Below are positions 4,265-12,097 of a stretch of DNA of 64,000 bases, one piece after another (position 1 is the stretch's first letter; each line of letters begins with the position of its first letter). The stretch is from assembly GCA_018434685.1 (NCBI GenBank), contig JAHDOV010000013.1, forward strand, positions 186,001-250,000, read 5' to 3'. Both the position numbers and the translations under genes were made by a program. Source of the DNA: Deltaproteobacteria bacterium (lineage in GTDB: Bacteria > Desulfobacterota > Desulfomonilia > UBA1062). A model generated the notes under the pieces. It was not told the origin of the DNA. It saw only the letters and a program-made list of their open reading frames with translations, and did not search any database.

Positions 4265-6058
4265 GTGAGATCCTCAAAACACTTTGCACAACAATTCGGG
4301 ATTATTACTGCAATCGTACTGGTTTTTTATGCTGTCTTCAGCCATGCTGATTTCGGCTACAAATTCTACTGGGCCGTTCTCTATGAGGTAAATCCCACCT
4401 ACAAGGAGATCTTCGGTTACTGGCTGCTCAGAGGCCTGCAGCTGACCGTGGAGATATCGCTCATCAGTACCGGGATAGCCCTTTTCATGGGAACGATCTT
4501 CGGCATTGCCCGCCTCTCCACGTTCAAACCCACCTACTACCTCGCAACCGGCTATGTCGAGTTCTTCCGGAACACCCCGCTGCTGGTCCAGCTCTTCTTC
4601 TGGTATTTTGCCTTTCCCCTGGCGCTGCCTGAGACGATCCGCATCTTTCTCAACGAACACAACTACGAGTTCTGGGCGGCAACCCTCGGTCTCGGCATCT
4701 ACACCGGTTCCTTCGTGGCCGAAATCGTCCGGGCCGGGATCCAGGCGATACCGCACGGTCATGTCGAGGCTGCCCTCTCCTCCGGACTGACAAGGGCTCA
4801 GCTGCTGAGATTCGTAATCCTGCCCCAGGCCTTCCGGGTCATCATCCCGCCCCTGGGCAGCGAGTTCCTCAACAATATGAAGAACTCCTCACTGGCCATG
4901 ACCATCGGGGTTGCAGAGCTCTGCTGGCAGTCCCAGCAGATCGAATCGTTCACCTTCAGGGGGTTCGAGGCGACATCGGCCGCATCGATCATCTACCTCA
5001 GCCTGTCGCTGTCCATCTCGGTGGTCATGAACACCATCAACCACCATCTCAAGATAGGACAGGATAAACAGCTCACCCTCGTGGACAGGTTTCTGGCGCT
5101 CCTGTTCCGGCCATTCTACCTCCTGGGCACGGCGGTCTACCTCATTCTCCGGCACCTGAAGAAACGGTTCAACCTGGGCGAATACGCTCCCCAGCATGAA
5201 GAAGCCGTCTTCGCATCCGTCTGGTCCCGGACCGCAGCCATAATCTGGAACTGGATGGGGTATTGTGCAAAGATCATCTTCGTGTGTCTGTTCATCGCGG
5301 TGATCGGTCTTGCAATATATGCGGCCTATTCCTTCAACTGGGGCATCATCTGGAAAAACCTCCCGTCGCTGCTGATCTGGACTTTCCCGCACGGAGGACA
5401 GGGAGAGATCTTCTACGGCCTGGGCGGCCTTACCATGAGCATCATCATCGCGGGGATCGCCCTGCTGGCGAGTTTCTTCATCGGGCTCGTATTCGGCCTG
5501 GGCAGGCTCAGCAACAATGCCCTCATCAGCACGCCGAGCGTCCTCTATATAGAGATCATACGGGGCAACCCCCTCATCATGGTGATCTTCTGGGTCTATT
5601 TCTTCTCACCCATTGTCACCGGCATGCAGATAGATGTGTTCTGGAGTGCCACCATCGCCTTCACCATATTCTCGGGGGCCTACCTGGCAGAGATCGTCCG
5701 TGCAGGGGTCAGCGCCATCCCGCACGGGCAGGTCGAGGCGGCAACGGCCTCGGGTCTCAACTACGTCCAGGTCATGAGAAAGGTCGTCCTTCCCCAGGCC
5801 CTCAAGATCATGATCCCTGCAATAGTCGGGCAATTCATTTCCCTGTTCAAAGATACCTCGCTCGCCTACATCATCGGCGTATTCGAGCTCACCACCATAG
5901 CCCAGACCCTGAACAACCGGCTCATGATCTATCCCTTCGAGATCTATACGACTATCGCGGTTCTCTACTTCATCTGCTGCTACAGCATGAGCATGGTGGC
6001 CAACCACCTCGAGCAGAAGTATACCCCGACGAGGAGAACAGCCCGCAGCGCCGGCTAA
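4265..6058 (+). CDS. Amino-acid ABC transporter permease, two permease domains fused
   Basis: At 597 residues this is about double the usual 220-300 for HisM/GlnP-type permeases. It contains two copies of the domain: the EAA-loop signature occurs at about residues 175-200 (EAALSSGLTRAQLLRFVILPQ) and again at about 490-515 (EAATASGLNYVQVMRKVVLPQ). Each copy has its own set of membrane segments, joined by a charged linker around residues 270-325. A fused protein would supply both halves of the normally homo- or heterodimeric channel. The GTG start at 4265 is supported by GGGAG six bases upstream. The gene completes the operon with the ATPase and binding protein. Confidence 0.93.
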   Translation: MRSSKHFAQQFGIITAIVLVFYAVFSHADFGYKFYWAVLYEVNPTYKEIFGYWLLRGLQLTVEISLISTGIALFMGTIFGIARLSTFKPTYYLATGYVEFFRNTPLLVQLFFWYFAFPLALPETIRIFLNEHNYEFWAATLGLGIYTGSFVAEIVRAGIQAIPHGHVEAALSSGLTRAQLLRFVILPQAFRVIIPPLGSEFLNNMKNSSLAMTIGVAELCWQSQQIESFTFRGFEATSAASIIYLSLSLSISVVMNTINHHLKIGQDKQLTLVDRFLALLFRPFYLLGTAVYLILRHLKKRFNLGEYAPQHEEAVFASVWSRTAAIIWNWMGYCAKIIFVCLFIAVIGLAIYAAYSFNWGIIWKNLPSLLIWTFPHGGQGEIFYGLGGLTMSIIIAGIALLASFFIGLVFGLGRLSNNALISTPSVLYIEIIRGNPLIMVIFWVYFFSPIVTGMQIDVFWSATIAFTIFSGAYLAEIVRAGVSAIPHGQVEAATASGLNYVQVMRKVVLPQALKIMIPAIVGQFISLFKDTSLAYIIGVFELTTIAQTLNNRLMIYPFEIYTTIAVLYFICCYSMSMVANHLEQKYTPTRRTARSAG

Positions 6059-6112: not shown

Positions 6113-6209
6113 TTTGCCAAATTGTCACAGAAGCAGGGGCATATCGAGTTTTTTTGCCATTTTGTCATACGAGAAGAATCCCCGGGGGACGTACATTGCC
6201 AGTATGACA
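6113..6209 (+). promoter_or_regulatory. Three spaced TTGCCA-type repeats, candidate activator (UAS) sites
   Basis: TTTGCCAAATTGTCAC (6113-6128) and TTTGCCATTTTGTCAT (6153-6168) are nearly identical and begin exactly 40 bases apart. A weaker third copy, TTGCCAGTATGACA (6196-6209), follows after 42 bases. Spacing close to four helical turns puts them on one face of the DNA. They end about 65 bases upstream of the sigma-54 promoter at 6272, the usual position for enhancer-binding-protein sites. Confidence 0.6.
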
Positions 6210-6271
6210 AATCAGCTCCATGCCATTGTTTATATCTGTTTTATTTTCGGCATGTTATGCATGTTCATTTC

Positions 6272-6287
6272 TGGCATGCCTTTTGCT
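6272..6287 (+). promoter_or_regulatory. Consensus sigma-54 (-24/-12) promoter
   Basis: TGGCATGCCTTTTGCT has the invariant GG at 6273-6274 and GC at 6285-6286 with exactly 10 bases between them, and matches TGGCAyr-N4-TTGCw. The expected transcript start is near 6298, and the first ATG with a strong ribosome binding site is at 6325. Initiation would need RpoN and an ATP-dependent activator, probably bound at the upstream repeats. Confidence 0.75.
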
Positions 6288-6324: not shown

Positions 6325-6501
6325 ATGGTAACGCTCTGGATCATAATCGGTTGTTTGTTTCTGACAGGCATCGGCATCAGGTTCATGTATCGGGTGCTCG
6401 GACTCAGCCCGGCGGAAGCAACCGCGGTGTTCGTCCTGGTCGTAATGCTCGTGGGAGTAAACTCTGGACCCGCGCGACAGTTCATCGCACAGATGTTCTG
6501 A
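6325..6501 (+). CDS. Small membrane protein, 58 residues
   Basis: The ATG at 6325 follows the strong site AAAGGAGAA; a longer frame from 6220 has no such site and crosses the sigma-54 promoter, so the short form is preferred. The protein has two predicted membrane helices: LWIIIGCLFLTGIGIRF near the start and TAVFVLVVMLVGV near residue 35. I do not recognise a family. The first helix and the RFMYR segment resemble the 35-residue protein encoded at 6747 (pattern IG-x6-IG-x-RF-x2-R), so the two may be paralogues. It is first in a three-gene sigma-54 operon with an AtpI/AtpZ-like protein, which hints at a membrane-complex accessory role. Function unknown. Confidence 0.7.
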   Translation: MVTLWIIIGCLFLTGIGIRFMYRVLGLSPAEATAVFVLVVMLVGVNSGPARQFIAQMF

Positions 6502-6510
6502 TAACGGATT

Positions 6511-6750
6511 ATGAAACGGGACAAGCCATATAAGCTTCCCAGAAAGACCCTGGCGAGGATAACCAGGATAAGCGCCCTGAGTTTTATCCTCGTTATCATG
6601 ACCTTTCTGGGACTGTATGGCGGTATGTACCTGGACCGGATAACCGATATGGCCCCCAATTTCACCTTTCTCGGTCTCATTCTCGGCGTCATAATCGGAT
6701 TCAAGGGCTTCGTACAGGAAGCCATCGCGGAAAGGAGAGGTCAGTCATGA
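6511..6750 (+). CDS. AtpI/AtpZ-like small membrane protein
   Basis: A 79-residue protein with a basic N-terminus and two hydrophobic segments. The second half, GLYGGMYLDRITDMAPNFTF followed by LGLILGVIIGFKGF, matches AtpZ/AtpI proteins of F-type ATPase operons (G-x3-G-x2-LD ... P-x-F-x2-LGLILG-x2-xGF). Relatives assist c-ring assembly or act with Mg/Ca transport beside ATP synthase. No ATP synthase gene is in this window, so this is an orphan copy. It begins nine bases after the 58-residue gene and overlaps the next gene by an ATGA junction. Confidence 0.8.
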   Translation: MKRDKPYKLPRKTLARITRISALSFILVIMTFLGLYGGMYLDRITDMAPNFTFLGLILGVIIGFKGFVQEAIAERRGQS

Positions 6751-6854
6751 CGTTTGTATTCATCACAATCGGTCTCGTATCGTTCATCGCCATCGGATTG
6801 AGGTTTGCAGCACGGGCAACCTCAAAAGAACCGGCCGCATACCGGGCCGAATAG
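6747..6854 (+). CDS. Very small membrane protein, 35 residues
   Basis: The frame starts at ATG 6747, overlapping the TGA of the AtpI-like gene (ATGA), and ends at TAG 6852-6854. GGAGAGG lies just upstream at 6732-6740. It encodes one hydrophobic helix (FVFITIGLVSFIAIGLRF) and a short polar tail. The helix resembles the first helix of the 58-residue protein two genes upstream. The junction, ribosome binding site and similarity argue that it is real despite its size. No known family. Confidence 0.6.
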   Translation: MTFVFITIGLVSFIAIGLRFAARATSKEPAAYRAE

Positions 6855-7199
6855 CTCATATTATTTCACGATCCGGCGGCCCCGTGGCGGAGAACGTTTC
6901 CGCTGCGGGGCCTTCTGTTGTCTTCCCTCCCCCCTTGCTCCATGACCCTCTGTACCGAGTACCGGTGAACCGTAAAATATTCACCAGCACCTCATTTTCT
7001 GTTGTACGGCGCGATAAAATCAGACTATCATGACATCCCAGAAGTACATGCTATGGGTTTCTCGGATCCGGGGGAGAGGTTCTTGTTATGTATCATTTGA
7101 AATTACCATCTGCTGCTCATTGTGAGTCTGTCACGCACAGGGCACTCATGCCTGAACCGCAATCGTCCGTGCGCCGGAGCAACAGCTCGTGGGAAGACC
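6855..7199. other. Intergenic region before the RND gene
   Basis: It holds the terminator-like hairpin at 6878-6912. Beyond that I see only unmatched sequence; an in-frame upstream ATG at 7122 has no ribosome binding site. Confidence 0.5.
6878..6912 (+). terminator. Terminator-like hairpin after the small-membrane-protein operon
   Basis: GGCCCCG (6878-6884) pairs with CGGGGCC (6906-6912), and the stem extends inward with two mismatches through GGCGGA/TCCGCT. The downstream sequence is pyrimidine-rich (TTCTGTTGTCTTCCCTCC) rather than a clean T-run. Confidence 0.6.
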
Positions 7200-9491
7200 A
7201 TGAAGACGCTGTCACAGATCATCTTTAGACTCCGCCGCGCACTGGTTGTCCTCGTCATCCTCCTGACCATCGTATTCGGCCTGTGCATCAACATGGACCT
7301 GGACAACACCATCAGCGCCTGGTTCGCCGAGGATGATCCGGTCTCGGTCAAATACAACAGCTTCCGCGATACCTTCGAGGGCGCCCGATATATCGTTGTT
7401 GCCGTGAGATCCCAGGATTTCTTTTCCACCGAGGTCCTCACGTATATCAGAGACAAGACCCGGGAACTGAAAAACATCGACCTGGCGAAGAGCGTCCACA
7501 GCCTGGCAAATGCCAACAAAGTGGTGGGCACTGAAGAGGGGGTGGTCATCACGCCCCTCCTGAACGGTCTTGAGGATGGAGACATCGGCGCCATCGAAGA
7601 GTATGCGCTCAATGACGAGCTCTTCAGGGATTACCTGGTATCCCACGACGGTACCCTCAGTGCCATCGTCATAGTCTTTGACGATTTGAAACCCAGGCAG
7701 ATACTGGCTGTCCTGGACCAGGTGGAGGCAATCCTCTCAAAAGACAAACCTGCCGGTGTCGAGACGTTCCTCGCCGGCGGTCTCATGATCAACGACGCCT
7801 TCAACAAGGTGACCGAGCAGAACGAGACCATTCTCCCCATCTTCGGTGTGATCCTCGTGCTGGTCATGACCTATATCCTGTTCCGTTCGATCCCCAAGAA
7901 TCTCATCGTCGTGACGGTGATAGCCATGAGCCTGTGCTGGACGCTCGGTTTCTATTCCCTGATGGGCTATACCTACAACGCGGTCAGCGGCCTGATCATC
8001 CCGTTGATCGTCATTCTCTCCATCGCCAACACGGTGCACATCATCGAATATTACGACGAGGTGCGCAAAGAGAACAACAGGAGAACCTCATACCTCGAGA
8101 CGATCCAGTACATCACCATCCCCTGCTTCATCACGAGCATCACGACCGCGTTCGGGCTCTTATCCCTGTGGGCCAGTCCCATCACCGCAGTACAGCATTT
8201 CGGCATCACCTCTGCGGCAGGCATCATGTTCGCCTTTATCATCTCCATTGTCATCGTTCCGTTCCTGCTCATACTCCTGCCGTCTCACGCACGGGTGCAC
8301 CACCCGCATTGGGGACACATGCTGGCAGGGATTTTCCATATCAGCGAGAGGGGATTCTGGGGCATCCTGCTGGCCACCGTGCTCTGCTTCATCTTTTTCG
8401 GTTACGGCGCCTCGAGGGTCAACATCGAGACCAATGAACTGGAGTGGTTTCCCAAGGACAGCGACGTGTACGTCAATTCCATGATGCTGGATACCTATCT
8501 CGCCGGTGTCGGCACGCTGGAACTGATTCTCGACGGGCAGGAAGATGTTCTCAAGGACCCGGAAATCCTGCACCGGATAGACGATCTTTCCCGGGAGCTC
8601 CGGCAGCTGCCTGGAGTGAAGAAGGTCATCTCCCTGACCAATTACGTCAAGGCGGTCAACCGGGCACTGAACAACAATGACCCGGCAGCCTACACGATTC
8701 CGGATTCACGCGAGCTCATTGCCCAGGAGATTCTCCTGTTCAGTTTTTCGGAGTCGGGCACCGAGGAACTGGAACGGATGGTCAACATGGACTACTCCCG
8801 GGGCAGGATCGCCTTGAAGATCAAGTATGCCGGCTCCCAGGAAACCCGGGCACTCATAGCACAGGTGGAGGAGAAGGCCGCGCACGCATTCTCCGGCACG
8901 GGCGTGAACATCTCGCTGACCGGAAGCTCGCACCTCTTCAGCATGCTCGACAAATACATCGTCGAGAGCCAGATCAAGACGTTCTCCCTGGCCTTCATCC
9001 TCGTCATCGGGATCCTCTTCGTCGTGTTCCGGTCGTTGAAATACGGCCTCCTGTGCGTCCTGCCCAACATCCTGCCCATCACCATGATCATCGGGATCAT
9101 GGGCTGGACGGGAATCAACCTGAACGTTGGAACGGTCATGATCGCCTCGGTCGCACTGGGCATCTGTGCCGACGACACCATTCACTTCCTCTCCCGGTTC
9201 AGGAAGGAGTTCTCTCACAAAGACCAGCCGCTCAATGTTGCCCTGAGAAAAACCATGATCTATGTGGGCAGGGCCGTGATCTTTACCTCACTCATCAGCA
9301 TCGGGGGGTTTTCCATCGTGGTCATCTCCGACTTCCAGCCCTCCCGGGATTTCGGGCTCCTGCTCTCGCTGACGCTCCTCCTTGCGCTCCTGTGCGATCT
9401 GTTTGTCCTTCCGGCAAGCATGATGGCAGTAAAGAGGTTCTTCGTAAAAAAACGCCTGCCGGAGGCCACGACCCCTCAACAGCCCACCTGA
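7200..9491 (+). CDS. RND-superfamily exporter, MMPL type
   Basis: A 763-residue polytopic protein with the two-fold RND layout: one N-terminal helix (about 10-30), a large exoplasmic loop, a first block of five or six helices (about 220-400), a second loop, and a final block (about 610-750). Motifs include NAVSGLIIPLIVILSIANTVH in the first block and GICADDTIHFLSRFRKE in the second; the Asp pair in the membrane is typical of proton-relay positions. Hydrophobe/lipid transport proteins (MmpL, HpnN-like) share this architecture. No membrane-fusion or outer-membrane partner is adjacent. The start at 7200 is chosen because it begins MKTLSQIIFRLRRA directly before the first helix. Confidence 0.88.
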   Translation: MKTLSQIIFRLRRALVVLVILLTIVFGLCINMDLDNTISAWFAEDDPVSVKYNSFRDTFEGARYIVVAVRSQDFFSTEVLTYIRDKTRELKNIDLAKSVHSLANANKVVGTEEGVVITPLLNGLEDGDIGAIEEYALNDELFRDYLVSHDGTLSAIVIVFDDLKPRQILAVLDQVEAILSKDKPAGVETFLAGGLMINDAFNKVTEQNETILPIFGVILVLVMTYILFRSIPKNLIVVTVIAMSLCWTLGFYSLMGYTYNAVSGLIIPLIVILSIANTVHIIEYYDEVRKENNRRTSYLETIQYITIPCFITSITTAFGLLSLWASPITAVQHFGITSAAGIMFAFIISIVIVPFLLILLPSHARVHHPHWGHMLAGIFHISERGFWGILLATVLCFIFFGYGASRVNIETNELEWFPKDSDVYVNSMMLDTYLAGVGTLELILDGQEDVLKDPEILHRIDDLSRELRQLPGVKKVISLTNYVKAVNRALNNNDPAAYTIPDSRELIAQEILLFSFSESGTEELERMVNMDYSRGRIALKIKYAGSQETRALIAQVEEKAAHAFSGTGVNISLTGSSHLFSMLDKYIVESQIKTFSLAFILVIGILFVVFRSLKYGLLCVLPNILPITMIIGIMGWTGINLNVGTVMIASVALGICADDTIHFLSRFRKEFSHKDQPLNVALRKTMIYVGRAVIFTSLISIGGFSIVVISDFQPSRDFGLLLSLTLLLALLCDLFVLPASMMAVKRFFVKKRLPEATTPQQPT

Positions 9492-9536
9492 ACGGAAACC
9501 CCCGTGTCATGGTCGGTGCGGATCATTATCCGGGGA

Positions 9537-9564
9537 TTGACACTGCTTTTCTCGATTGTATCCT
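9537..9564 (+). promoter_or_regulatory. Candidate sigma-70 promoter for the hybrid kinase gene
   Basis: TTGACA (9537-9542), a perfect -35 hexamer, and TATCCT (9559-9564) are separated by 16 bases. The kinase ATG is at 9602, just downstream. Confidence 0.55.
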
Positions 9565-9601
9565 TTACCGTAAGAAACCGTTACGGAACAGGAGTCGATC
9601 C

Positions 9602-12097
9602 ATGCCGCACACCACCCTCGATGATCTGCAGAAACGCATCAGAGAACTCGAGCAGGACAACAGGATCCTCTCTCATGACATAACGGCCCACAAACAGATC
9701 GAGGATCTTCTCCGTTTCCAGAGGGATCTCGGCATCTACCTGAGCACCTCGAGAGACCTCCAGCAGACCTTGACCCATGTCCTGGAAAGCATCTGCGGTA
9801 TCGAGGGCATCGACGCCGCAGGCATATACCTCATCGACGATTTCACCGGGTGCATGGACCTCGCCGCTCATAAAGGTTTCAGCAGCGAACTCGCCGGGCA
9901 GCTTTCCCACTATGAAGCCGGTTCGCCCCAGGTCAGAGAAGTCATGGAGGGGACACCTGTCTACCGCGACTGTTCCGACACAGTGACCCACACCGGGGAT
10001 CCGGCTCGCCGGTTCGAGTTCAAGGCAATGGCAATCATCCCCATCAGGTCCGAGGACAGGACCATCGGCTCGCTGTTCCTAGTTTCCTTCAGCCTCGATG
10101 CTGTTCAGATCAACGTCCGCATAGCCCTCGAGACCATCACGGCCCGCATGGGCGGGGTAATCGTCCGCATCAAGGCCGAAGACACGCTCAAGAGATACGA
10201 ACTCATCCTGTCCACAGTGCATGACTTCATATCGTTTATCGATACCGGCTACATCTACCGTGCAGTGAATAAAACATACCTCCTGGCCTTTCAGAAACCT
10301 CGCGAGGAGATCATCGGCAAGAGCGTTGCCGATCTCTTCGGGGAAGAGGTCTTCAGGAACAGGATACAGAAACAGATCGACTCTGCCCTGGGGGGAAAAG
10401 AGACCCACTATGAAGAGCGTTTTGATTATCCTGCGTGGCCGGGGCGCTGGATGAGCCTGAGCTACTACCCCTACCGCGAGAAGGACGGCTCCATAAGCGG
10501 GATAGCCGTTATTGCCCGGGACATAACCGAGAGGAAGAAAGCGGAGAAAAGGCTCATGGAGAGCGAAGTGCAATACCGGCATCTCTTCGAATATGCCAAC
10601 GATGCCATCCTCATAATCAAAGACCTGCTTATCGTTGACTGCAACAGGAAGAGCATGGAGACCTTCGGGTGCACAAGAGAGGACATGATCAGCCGGCATC
10701 TGGCCGGATTCCTGCCCCTGCTCCAGCCTGACGGGGAAAAGTCCCTGGACAGGTGGGCAAGGCTGCAGCAGAGGGTCCTCTACGATAAGCCACAGATATT
10801 CGAATGGGTTTTTCAGCGCTGCCCTGGGGAAGTATTTGATGCAGAAGTGGGCATCAACCATATAGAACTCAAAGGCCAGCATTATATCCAGGCAATTATC
10901 CGCGACATCACCCAGCGCAAGCGCAGGGAGGAAGAACACATCAAGGTCAGCAAGCTCGAGTCCATCGGCATTCTTGCCGGGGGGATCGCCCATGATTTCA
11001 ACAATATTCTCGCGACGATCCTGGGCAATATCGAACTCGCCCAGACCTTCGTCCAGGACCGGGACAAGCCCTATACCAGGTTGTCCAGGGCCATAGAGGC
11101 CTGTAACCGGGCGAGAGACCTCACGATGCATTTCCTCACGCTGTCCAAGGGAGGCACCCCGCTCAAGAAAACCGGGCCCATCACTCCTCTGATCAGAGAA
11201 TCGACCGGCCTTGCCCTGTCCGGATCGAATATCAGGTGCGAGATCACCCTGCCGGATGACCTCTGGCTGGTCGAGTTCGACGAGAGCCAGCTCCTCCATG
11301 CTATCGACAATATCCTGGTGAATGCCCGGGAGGCCATGCCGAAAGGCGGAACCATCACCATATCCGCCGAGAACATCGTCCATCAGTCCGGCACCTTCAT
11401 TGCGGGCGCTGCCGTACCGGAAGGTCGCTATCTTCGAATAGCCATAACCGATTCGGGCCCGGGAATCCCGGAAGACATCCGGACAAAGATATTCGACCCT
11501 TACTTCTCGACAAAGGAGATGGGCGCACAAAAGGGCATGGGTTTAGGGCTCACCACCGCCTATTCCATCATCAAGAAACACGGCGGGTATCTCTTCATGG
11601 ATTCACAGCTGAACGTGGGCACAACGTTTTATATCCTGCTGCCTGCCATCAGGAAGAGCCCGGCCGAGCACGCCCCGGGCGAGGCAACCTTCTCTCCCGG
11701 CGGGAAAAGGATCCTCCTCATGGACGACGAGGAAATGATCCGGGATACGGTCTCGCATATGCTCCATGAGCTGGGTTATGACGTGGAAACCTCCCGCAAC
11801 GGCGAAGAGGCCGTGGAACGATACATTCTTGCGAGAAAGGCAGGGCTCGGTTTTGACGCAGTGATCCTCGATCTTACGGTCCGCGGCGGCATGGGCGGCG
11901 CGCACACCATGGAACAGCTGAAAAAAATCGATCCGAAGGCAACGGGCATCATCTCAAGCGGGTATTCGGATGATACGGTCATGATCAATTTCGAGAAGTA
12001 CGGCTTCAGCGCAGTCATGGTGAAACCCTTCAGCATGGCTGAACTGTCCGATACCCTGCAGAAGATATTGACTCCCCGGATAAGGATCGGGGAGTGA
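9602..12097 (+). CDS. Hybrid sensor histidine kinase: GAF-PAS-PAS-HisKA-HATPase-REC
   Basis: An 831-residue, soluble-looking sensor kinase. In order: a short coiled coil (1-40), a GAF domain (about 45-190), two PAS domains (about 195-315 and 325-440, each ending in a PAC-like ITERKK or ITQRKR), the HisKA H-box GGIAHDFNNILATILGN with the phosphoacceptor His near residue 460, the HATPase N-box NARE and G-boxes DSGPGIPED and GMGLGLTTA, then a C-terminal receiver (about 705-831) with the Asp in VILDLTVRG and the Lys in VKPFS. No membrane segment is visible, so a cytoplasmic signal is likely. The ATG at 9602 follows AGGAG. The final phosphotransfer partner is not nearby. Confidence 0.92.
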   Translation: MPHTTLDDLQKRIRELEQDNRILSHDITAHKQIEDLLRFQRDLGIYLSTSRDLQQTLTHVLESICGIEGIDAAGIYLIDDFTGCMDLAAHKGFSSELAGQLSHYEAGSPQVREVMEGTPVYRDCSDTVTHTGDPARRFEFKAMAIIPIRSEDRTIGSLFLVSFSLDAVQINVRIALETITARMGGVIVRIKAEDTLKRYELILSTVHDFISFIDTGYIYRAVNKTYLLAFQKPREEIIGKSVADLFGEEVFRNRIQKQIDSALGGKETHYEERFDYPAWPGRWMSLSYYPYREKDGSISGIAVIARDITERKKAEKRLMESEVQYRHLFEYANDAILIIKDLLIVDCNRKSMETFGCTREDMISRHLAGFLPLLQPDGEKSLDRWARLQQRVLYDKPQIFEWVFQRCPGEVFDAEVGINHIELKGQHYIQAIIRDITQRKRREEEHIKVSKLESIGILAGGIAHDFNNILATILGNIELAQTFVQDRDKPYTRLSRAIEACNRARDLTMHFLTLSKGGTPLKKTGPITPLIRESTGLALSGSNIRCEITLPDDLWLVEFDESQLLHAIDNILVNAREAMPKGGTITISAENIVHQSGTFIAGAAVPEGRYLRIAITDSGPGIPEDIRTKIFDPYFSTKEMGAQKGMGLGLTTAYSIIKKHGGYLFMDSQLNVGTTFYILLPAIRKSPAEHAPGEATFSPGGKRILLMDDEEMIRDTVSHMLHELGYDVETSRNGEEAVERYILARKAGLGFDAVILDLTVRGGMGGAHTMEQLKKIDPKATGIISSGYSDDTVMINFEKYGFSAVMVKPFSMAELSDTLQKILTPRIRIGE

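Follow-up and report, generated by a model that had tools for sequence, protein, structure and literature searches.

An AtpZ-like protein and two miniproteins encoded in a multi-copy, family-specific operon with sigma54-type control signals

AtpZ and AtpI, helper proteins whose genes belong to atp operons, are still poorly understood. In Bacillus pseudofirmus, AtpZ has been linked to Mg2+ acquisition and AtpI to the stability and assembly of the ATP synthase (review PMC4453477). With respect to sigma54 control, most sigma54 regulators in the D. vulgaris regulome have one to four targets (PMC4641369). The unit described here encodes an AtpZ-like protein between two miniproteins, P58 and P35, downstream of a predicted sigma54 promoter with enhancer sites. 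It lies in a window of 64,000 nucleotides, the whole stretch of DNA that was analysed, from a Deltaproteobacteria bacterium (Desulfobacterota; Desulfomonilia; UBA1062). The features of the unit are listed below.

6115 to 6127, + strand: enhancer (UAS) site 1, TGCCAAATTGTCA, of the form TGNCA-N3-TGNCA; at about -214, the same position in most relatives.
6155 to 6167, + strand: enhancer (UAS) site 2, TGCCATTTTGTCA; 40 bases past site 1, the same position in most relatives.
6197 to 6209, + strand: enhancer (UAS) site 3, TGCCAGTATGACA; 42 bases past site 2, with a site at -125 to -140 in 42 of 42 loci.
6243 to 6256, + strand: AT-rich conserved segment in the gap between enhancers and promoter, weakly IHF-like; conservation spans columns -29 to -16, counted from the -24 element.
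6272 to 6287, + strand: predicted sigma54 -24/-12 promoter, TGGCATGCCTTTTGCT; all 36 aligned upstream regions carry TGGCA and TTG without variation.
6325 to 6501, + strand: P58, a 58-residue two-helix membrane miniprotein, the core of the unit; 45 distinct sequences, helices predicted by AlphaFold2.
6511 to 6750, + strand: AtpZ-like (ATPase_gene1) protein of 79 residues; PF09527 at 37.6 bits, above the gathering score.
6747 to 6854, + strand: P35, a 35-residue single-helix paralogue of the first half of P58; kept at 33 of 37 loci, hhalign probability to P58 91%.
6878 to 6922, + strand: intrinsic terminator downstream of P35, with a 16-pair stem and a T-rich tail.

Analysis of the three frames confirmed their placement as given in the preliminary description, with nine bases between P58 and the AtpZ-like gene and an ATGA overlap between the latter and P35, and all three were found to be coding. 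Mean column identity in the alignments of relatives was highest for P58 (87%), followed by AtpZ (73%) and P35 (63%), and P58 is thus the best conserved member of the trio. Among its 45 distinct sequences, G9, R19, E31, A32 and N46 are invariant. AlphaFold2 predicted helices at residues 2-25, 29-46 and 48-57 of P58 (mean pLDDT 84, pTM 0.54). Purifying selection is strong on P58 (median pN 0.16 and pS 0.69 over 666 pairs) and moderate on P35 (0.30 and 0.72, respectively), which indicates that both are real genes. Neither miniprotein matched a family in Pfam, NCBIfam, PHROGs or PADLOC, and the PHROGs and PADLOC profiles did not identify the unit as a phage holin or a defence component. P58 and P35 therefore add two small-protein families without matches in these collections, and gene callers may skip them.

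The IG-x6-IG-x-RF-x2-R motif reported earlier was found in both miniproteins, and the paralogy that it suggested was borne out by profile-profile comparison with shuffle controls. Residues 1-31 of P58 and residues 1-31 of P35 aligned without gaps over 31 columns (hhalign, E about 1e-6); the score of 30.6 exceeded the shuffle maximum of 22.3 and was reached by none of 150 full and none of 150 class-preserving column shuffles. This gapless match argues that P35 is a single-helix version of the N-terminal half of P58. Profile comparison revealed no relation of either P58 or P35 to AtpZ.

Among 37 non-redundant loci, P58 was found in all 37, AtpZ in 33 and P35 in 33, with P35 ambiguous at one further locus and divergent forms counted as present; loci from whole genomes had been gathered with P58 as the search handle. 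AtpZ is missing at the remaining four. P58 and P35 occur without AtpZ in L081 (at 5877), L083 and L094; P58 and AtpZ without P35 in L085 and L024; and P58 alone in L095, while L086 holds P58 with divergent forms of both partners. Sixteen loci were gathered with AtpZ instead: the scan of species genomes gave 16 relatives of the AtpZ-like protein, of which 15 were preceded by the 58-residue frame and the sixteenth begins at a contig edge. In most of the 16, a frame of 35 residues follows, its start sharing ATGA with the AtpZ stop codon. The set is thus conserved across loci. Retention of the AtpI-like gene with loss of the flanking frames was not observed; rather, the reverse holds, since P58 is constant and AtpZ is the member missing at four of the 37 loci. 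The view of an orphan AtpZ with two flanking accessories therefore had the hierarchy wrong: P58 is the core, and AtpZ and P35 are its usual but dispensable partners. At G405:C202:1722-2089, a tandem pair of P58 genes lies about 20 bases apart.

A phylum-wide draw of 395 genomes revealed a match in 14. In the class-level search, within the host's family, full-length P58 was present in 22 of 24 sampled genomes with one to six copies each, and the host genome itself has three units. The other two family genomes are 77-78% complete; one has a P58 fragment and the other an enhancer pair, both at a contig edge. None of 18 genomes of the sister family contained P58, save for one chance-level match. 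This match (G312, E 4e-4) lies inside a CitMHS/DASS-type transporter, and was rejected as a selected chance match whose shared residues need a six-residue gap. The sole unit outside the host's family (G157:C58:323-496) is at a contig end in a genome of a distant family. P58 is absent from ten relatives of that genome, and the copy could represent transfer or binning contamination. No unit was found in the viral contigs or the plasmids searched.

Two of the host's units, on C49 (L099) and at C56:40280 (L100), are 97% identical over 813 bases with unrelated flanks, and the identity has clean edges, beginning at enhancer 1 and ending shortly after the terminator. Such copies of genes for small hydrophobic proteins are what a selfish or toxin-type cassette (type I toxin or holin-like) spreading in the genome would leave. 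We consider this highly improbable, as no PHROG or PADLOC match was obtained, the unit is absent from the viral contigs and plasmids searched, no terminal repeats were seen by eye, and toxin control does not look like a sigma54 enhancer with several sites. Furthermore, the two sites resemble sites occupied in other genomes, namely the tRNA-Phe site (L095, L100) and a hydrolase/epimerase block; a tRNA-Phe gene precedes the unit in L100, the unit in L095 and the one at the start of L183. A mobile cassette as the source of the near-identical copies was rejected on this ground. Because both sites are occupied in relatives too, the likeness is most simply, and probably, explained by gene conversion between old copies.

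Comparison of the genes around the units revealed that neighbours vary between loci, indicating that the unit stands alone. An amino-acid ABC transporter operon directly precedes the window copy and several further units; other neighbours include an MMPL exporter, a hybrid sensor kinase, and a block of a metallo-hydrolase, an epimerase, a glyoxalase-family protein and a helicase. Single-helix accessory peptides are common in transporters, and the miniproteins might accordingly be small regulatory subunits in the style of KdpF or the MetS type, serving for instance the amino-acid ABC transporter next to the copy in the window. We regard this as rather improbable, given that most units have other neighbours, that the unit has its own promoter and that known accessory families in Pfam and NCBIfam gave no match. 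Two further observations concern the neighbourhood. The frame at 4265-6058 of the window encodes a 597-residue protein in which two ABC amino-acid permease domains are fused; its ATPase and its binding protein are encoded in the same operon. Hybrid histidine kinases of the GAF/PAS type, equipped with a receiver domain, turn up repeatedly close to units (window 9053-12097, L012, L014, L017 and L081); such kinases being common, the recurrence may be due to chance.

Analysis of the upstream regions revealed an elaborate control region, which, like the multi-copy, family-wide distribution, had not been noticed in the preliminary description. At each locus, a predicted sigma54 element of the TGGCA/TTGC type is located 50-63 bases (typically about 55) 5' of the P58 start, and it is conserved in all 36 aligned regions. 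TGNCA-N3-TGNCA sites occur one to three per locus, near -130, -172 and -214; at least one is present in all 42 loci and two or three in most. Their spacing of about 42 bases corresponds to four helical turns, which places the sites on the same face of the helix. The AT-rich segment that separates the enhancers from the promoter may be an IHF-like site. When the 24 family genomes were searched for paired sites, 32 places were found: 27 are immediately before P58 and five are at contig ends, where the assembly breaks off. The reversed-pattern control gave none. Since paired sites occur only at units or contig ends, this criterion detects no regulon member other than the unit, and the sigma54 regulon appears to be composed only of copies of one operon. 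Sigma54-type regulation of the unit is thus well supported by these sequence patterns. For the cognate enhancer-binding protein there are 31 strong candidates in the host genome, and reciprocal best hits with the carriers G032 and G157 gave no unique match. A literature search on NorR-type enhancer sites returned nothing relevant. A terminator scan over the loci, of limited informative value, was positive at 17 of 36 against 5.6 expected and overlooked the window's own hairpin.

The middle protein is a member of Pfam PF09527 (gathering cut-off 26.6), with a score of 13.4 bits against NCBIfam TIGR02230, under the cut-off of 46.7. The earlier statement that ATP synthase genes are absent holds for the window as regards the a subunit, but not for the genome, which has three atp clusters on other contigs, with a subunits only on C40, C47 and C1. 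Each cluster has its own AtpZ nearby. None of the 37 non-redundant unit loci has an adjacent atp gene, so the check for atp genes beside the unit agrees with the proposed independence from them; at L085, atp F0 genes lie at a distance of about 6 kb, separated from the unit by unrelated genes. The units could alternatively tune how the resident ATP synthases, of which this genome has three, or their c-rings are assembled under a special condition, providing AtpZ on demand with P58 and P35 as adaptors. Both AtpZ and AtpI are tied to atp operons and to the stability of the synthase, three atp clusters exist in the genome, and with an AtpZ already at each of them an inducible extra copy would modulate. 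This explanation is unlikely in view of the units without AtpZ, the lack of any unit adjoining atp genes, and the tendency of trio AtpZs to group apart from operon AtpZs, a weakly supported grouping with long branches.

Two observations were also made on the atp clusters themselves. In the second host cluster, a frame of 494 residues (G000:C47:245246-246646, partly in L009) holds six F0 c-subunit hairpins in tandem and precedes a separate c subunit, and similar fused c frames were found in G021, G033, G036, G037 and G053. The third cluster, with its own AtpZ-type gene (G000:C1, L008), is possibly of the N-ATPase type judging from gene order.

Overall, our analysis shows an autonomous, conserved, multi-copy and family-specific operon with sigma54-type control, closed by a terminator in the window. 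The presence across a family of several copies with the same elaborate control is suggestive of a small membrane machine that is produced only in some particular condition. We propose tentatively that an enhancer-binding protein would turn the operon on under one particular condition and that the products would assemble as a small inner-membrane complex. P58 as helical hairpin and P35 as single helix would form the constant scaffold, and the AtpZ-type hairpin, a subunit borrowed by this complex, would be the usual partner. Complex formation by the three proteins is plausible. The likeliest job would be to assist, conditionally, either divalent-cation (Mg2+/Ca2+) homeostasis or the assembly and stability of a membrane complex, separately from the resident atp operons. 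We infer this function as the most economical one from the ties of AtpZ to Mg2+ acquisition and of AtpI to synthase stability; homology of the middle protein to AtpZ is the one ground that suggests it, and the absence of an AtpI partner from the unit counts against it. As AtpZ is missing from four of the 37 units, P58 and P35 must also have a role independent of AtpZ. The unit constitutes a natural system in which AtpZ occurs outside the atp context, with defined miniprotein partners and predicted tight inducible control, so that its role can be studied apart from the rotary enzyme.

Comparison with the F0 c subunit (PF00137) revealed a faint similarity of P58 helix 2 around the invariant glutamic acid. 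P58 might be read as a degenerate proteolipid, its second helix (GLTPxEAxAVFxLIxxL) homologous to c-subunit helix 2 including the ion-binding glutamic acid, which would form a c-like oligomer with AtpZ as assembly factor. Searched against 177,635 PDB sequences, the P58 profile had a c subunit as its top match, with E31, invariant in 45 of 45 P58 sequences, placed on the ion-binding residue (E 0.32, not significant), and hhalign of the 45 sequences against the c subunit scored 19.6, equalled by one of 200 class-preserving shuffles. However, the probability was just 13%, falling to 3% with a smaller P58 set, for which 4 to 8 of 200 shuffles were as good. P58 has no PF00137 match at E up to 1, is shorter and is without the polar RNP-type loop. 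Its glutamic acid is only three residues into the predicted helix, where T/S-P-x-E fits an ordinary N-capping box, and the c-subunit register was noticed after the fact. The homology is suggestive only, and we give the degenerate proteolipid very little credence. A broader possibility, also improbable, is that P58 and P35 represent a new membrane-complex family of proteolipid-like character, conceivably with a distant likeness to the c subunit. This family would have removed an AtpZ assembly factor from its F-ATPase setting and brought it under a sigma54 enhancer switch that is dedicated to this single purpose and is kept in several copies throughout the bacterial family.

The AtpZ of the Bacillus pseudofirmus OF4 atp operon (PF09527) shares with the middle protein the N-in double-helix layout and the conserved GLYxGxxLD segment. 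Unlike it, the trio AtpZ is outside an atp operon, has no AtpI partner, is far under the TIGR02230 cut-off, is bracketed by P58 and P35 under sigma54-type control, and is lost from some units. The sigma54 enhancer-dependent operons of the D. vulgaris regulome (PMC4641369) resemble the unit in the -24/-12 promoter, the tandem enhancers, a possible IHF-type bend and a small regulon, within the range of one to four targets. The TGNCA-N3-TGNCA motif did not turn up in that study's text, and in contrast to the regulons described there, the only targets detected for the unit are copies of the same operon.
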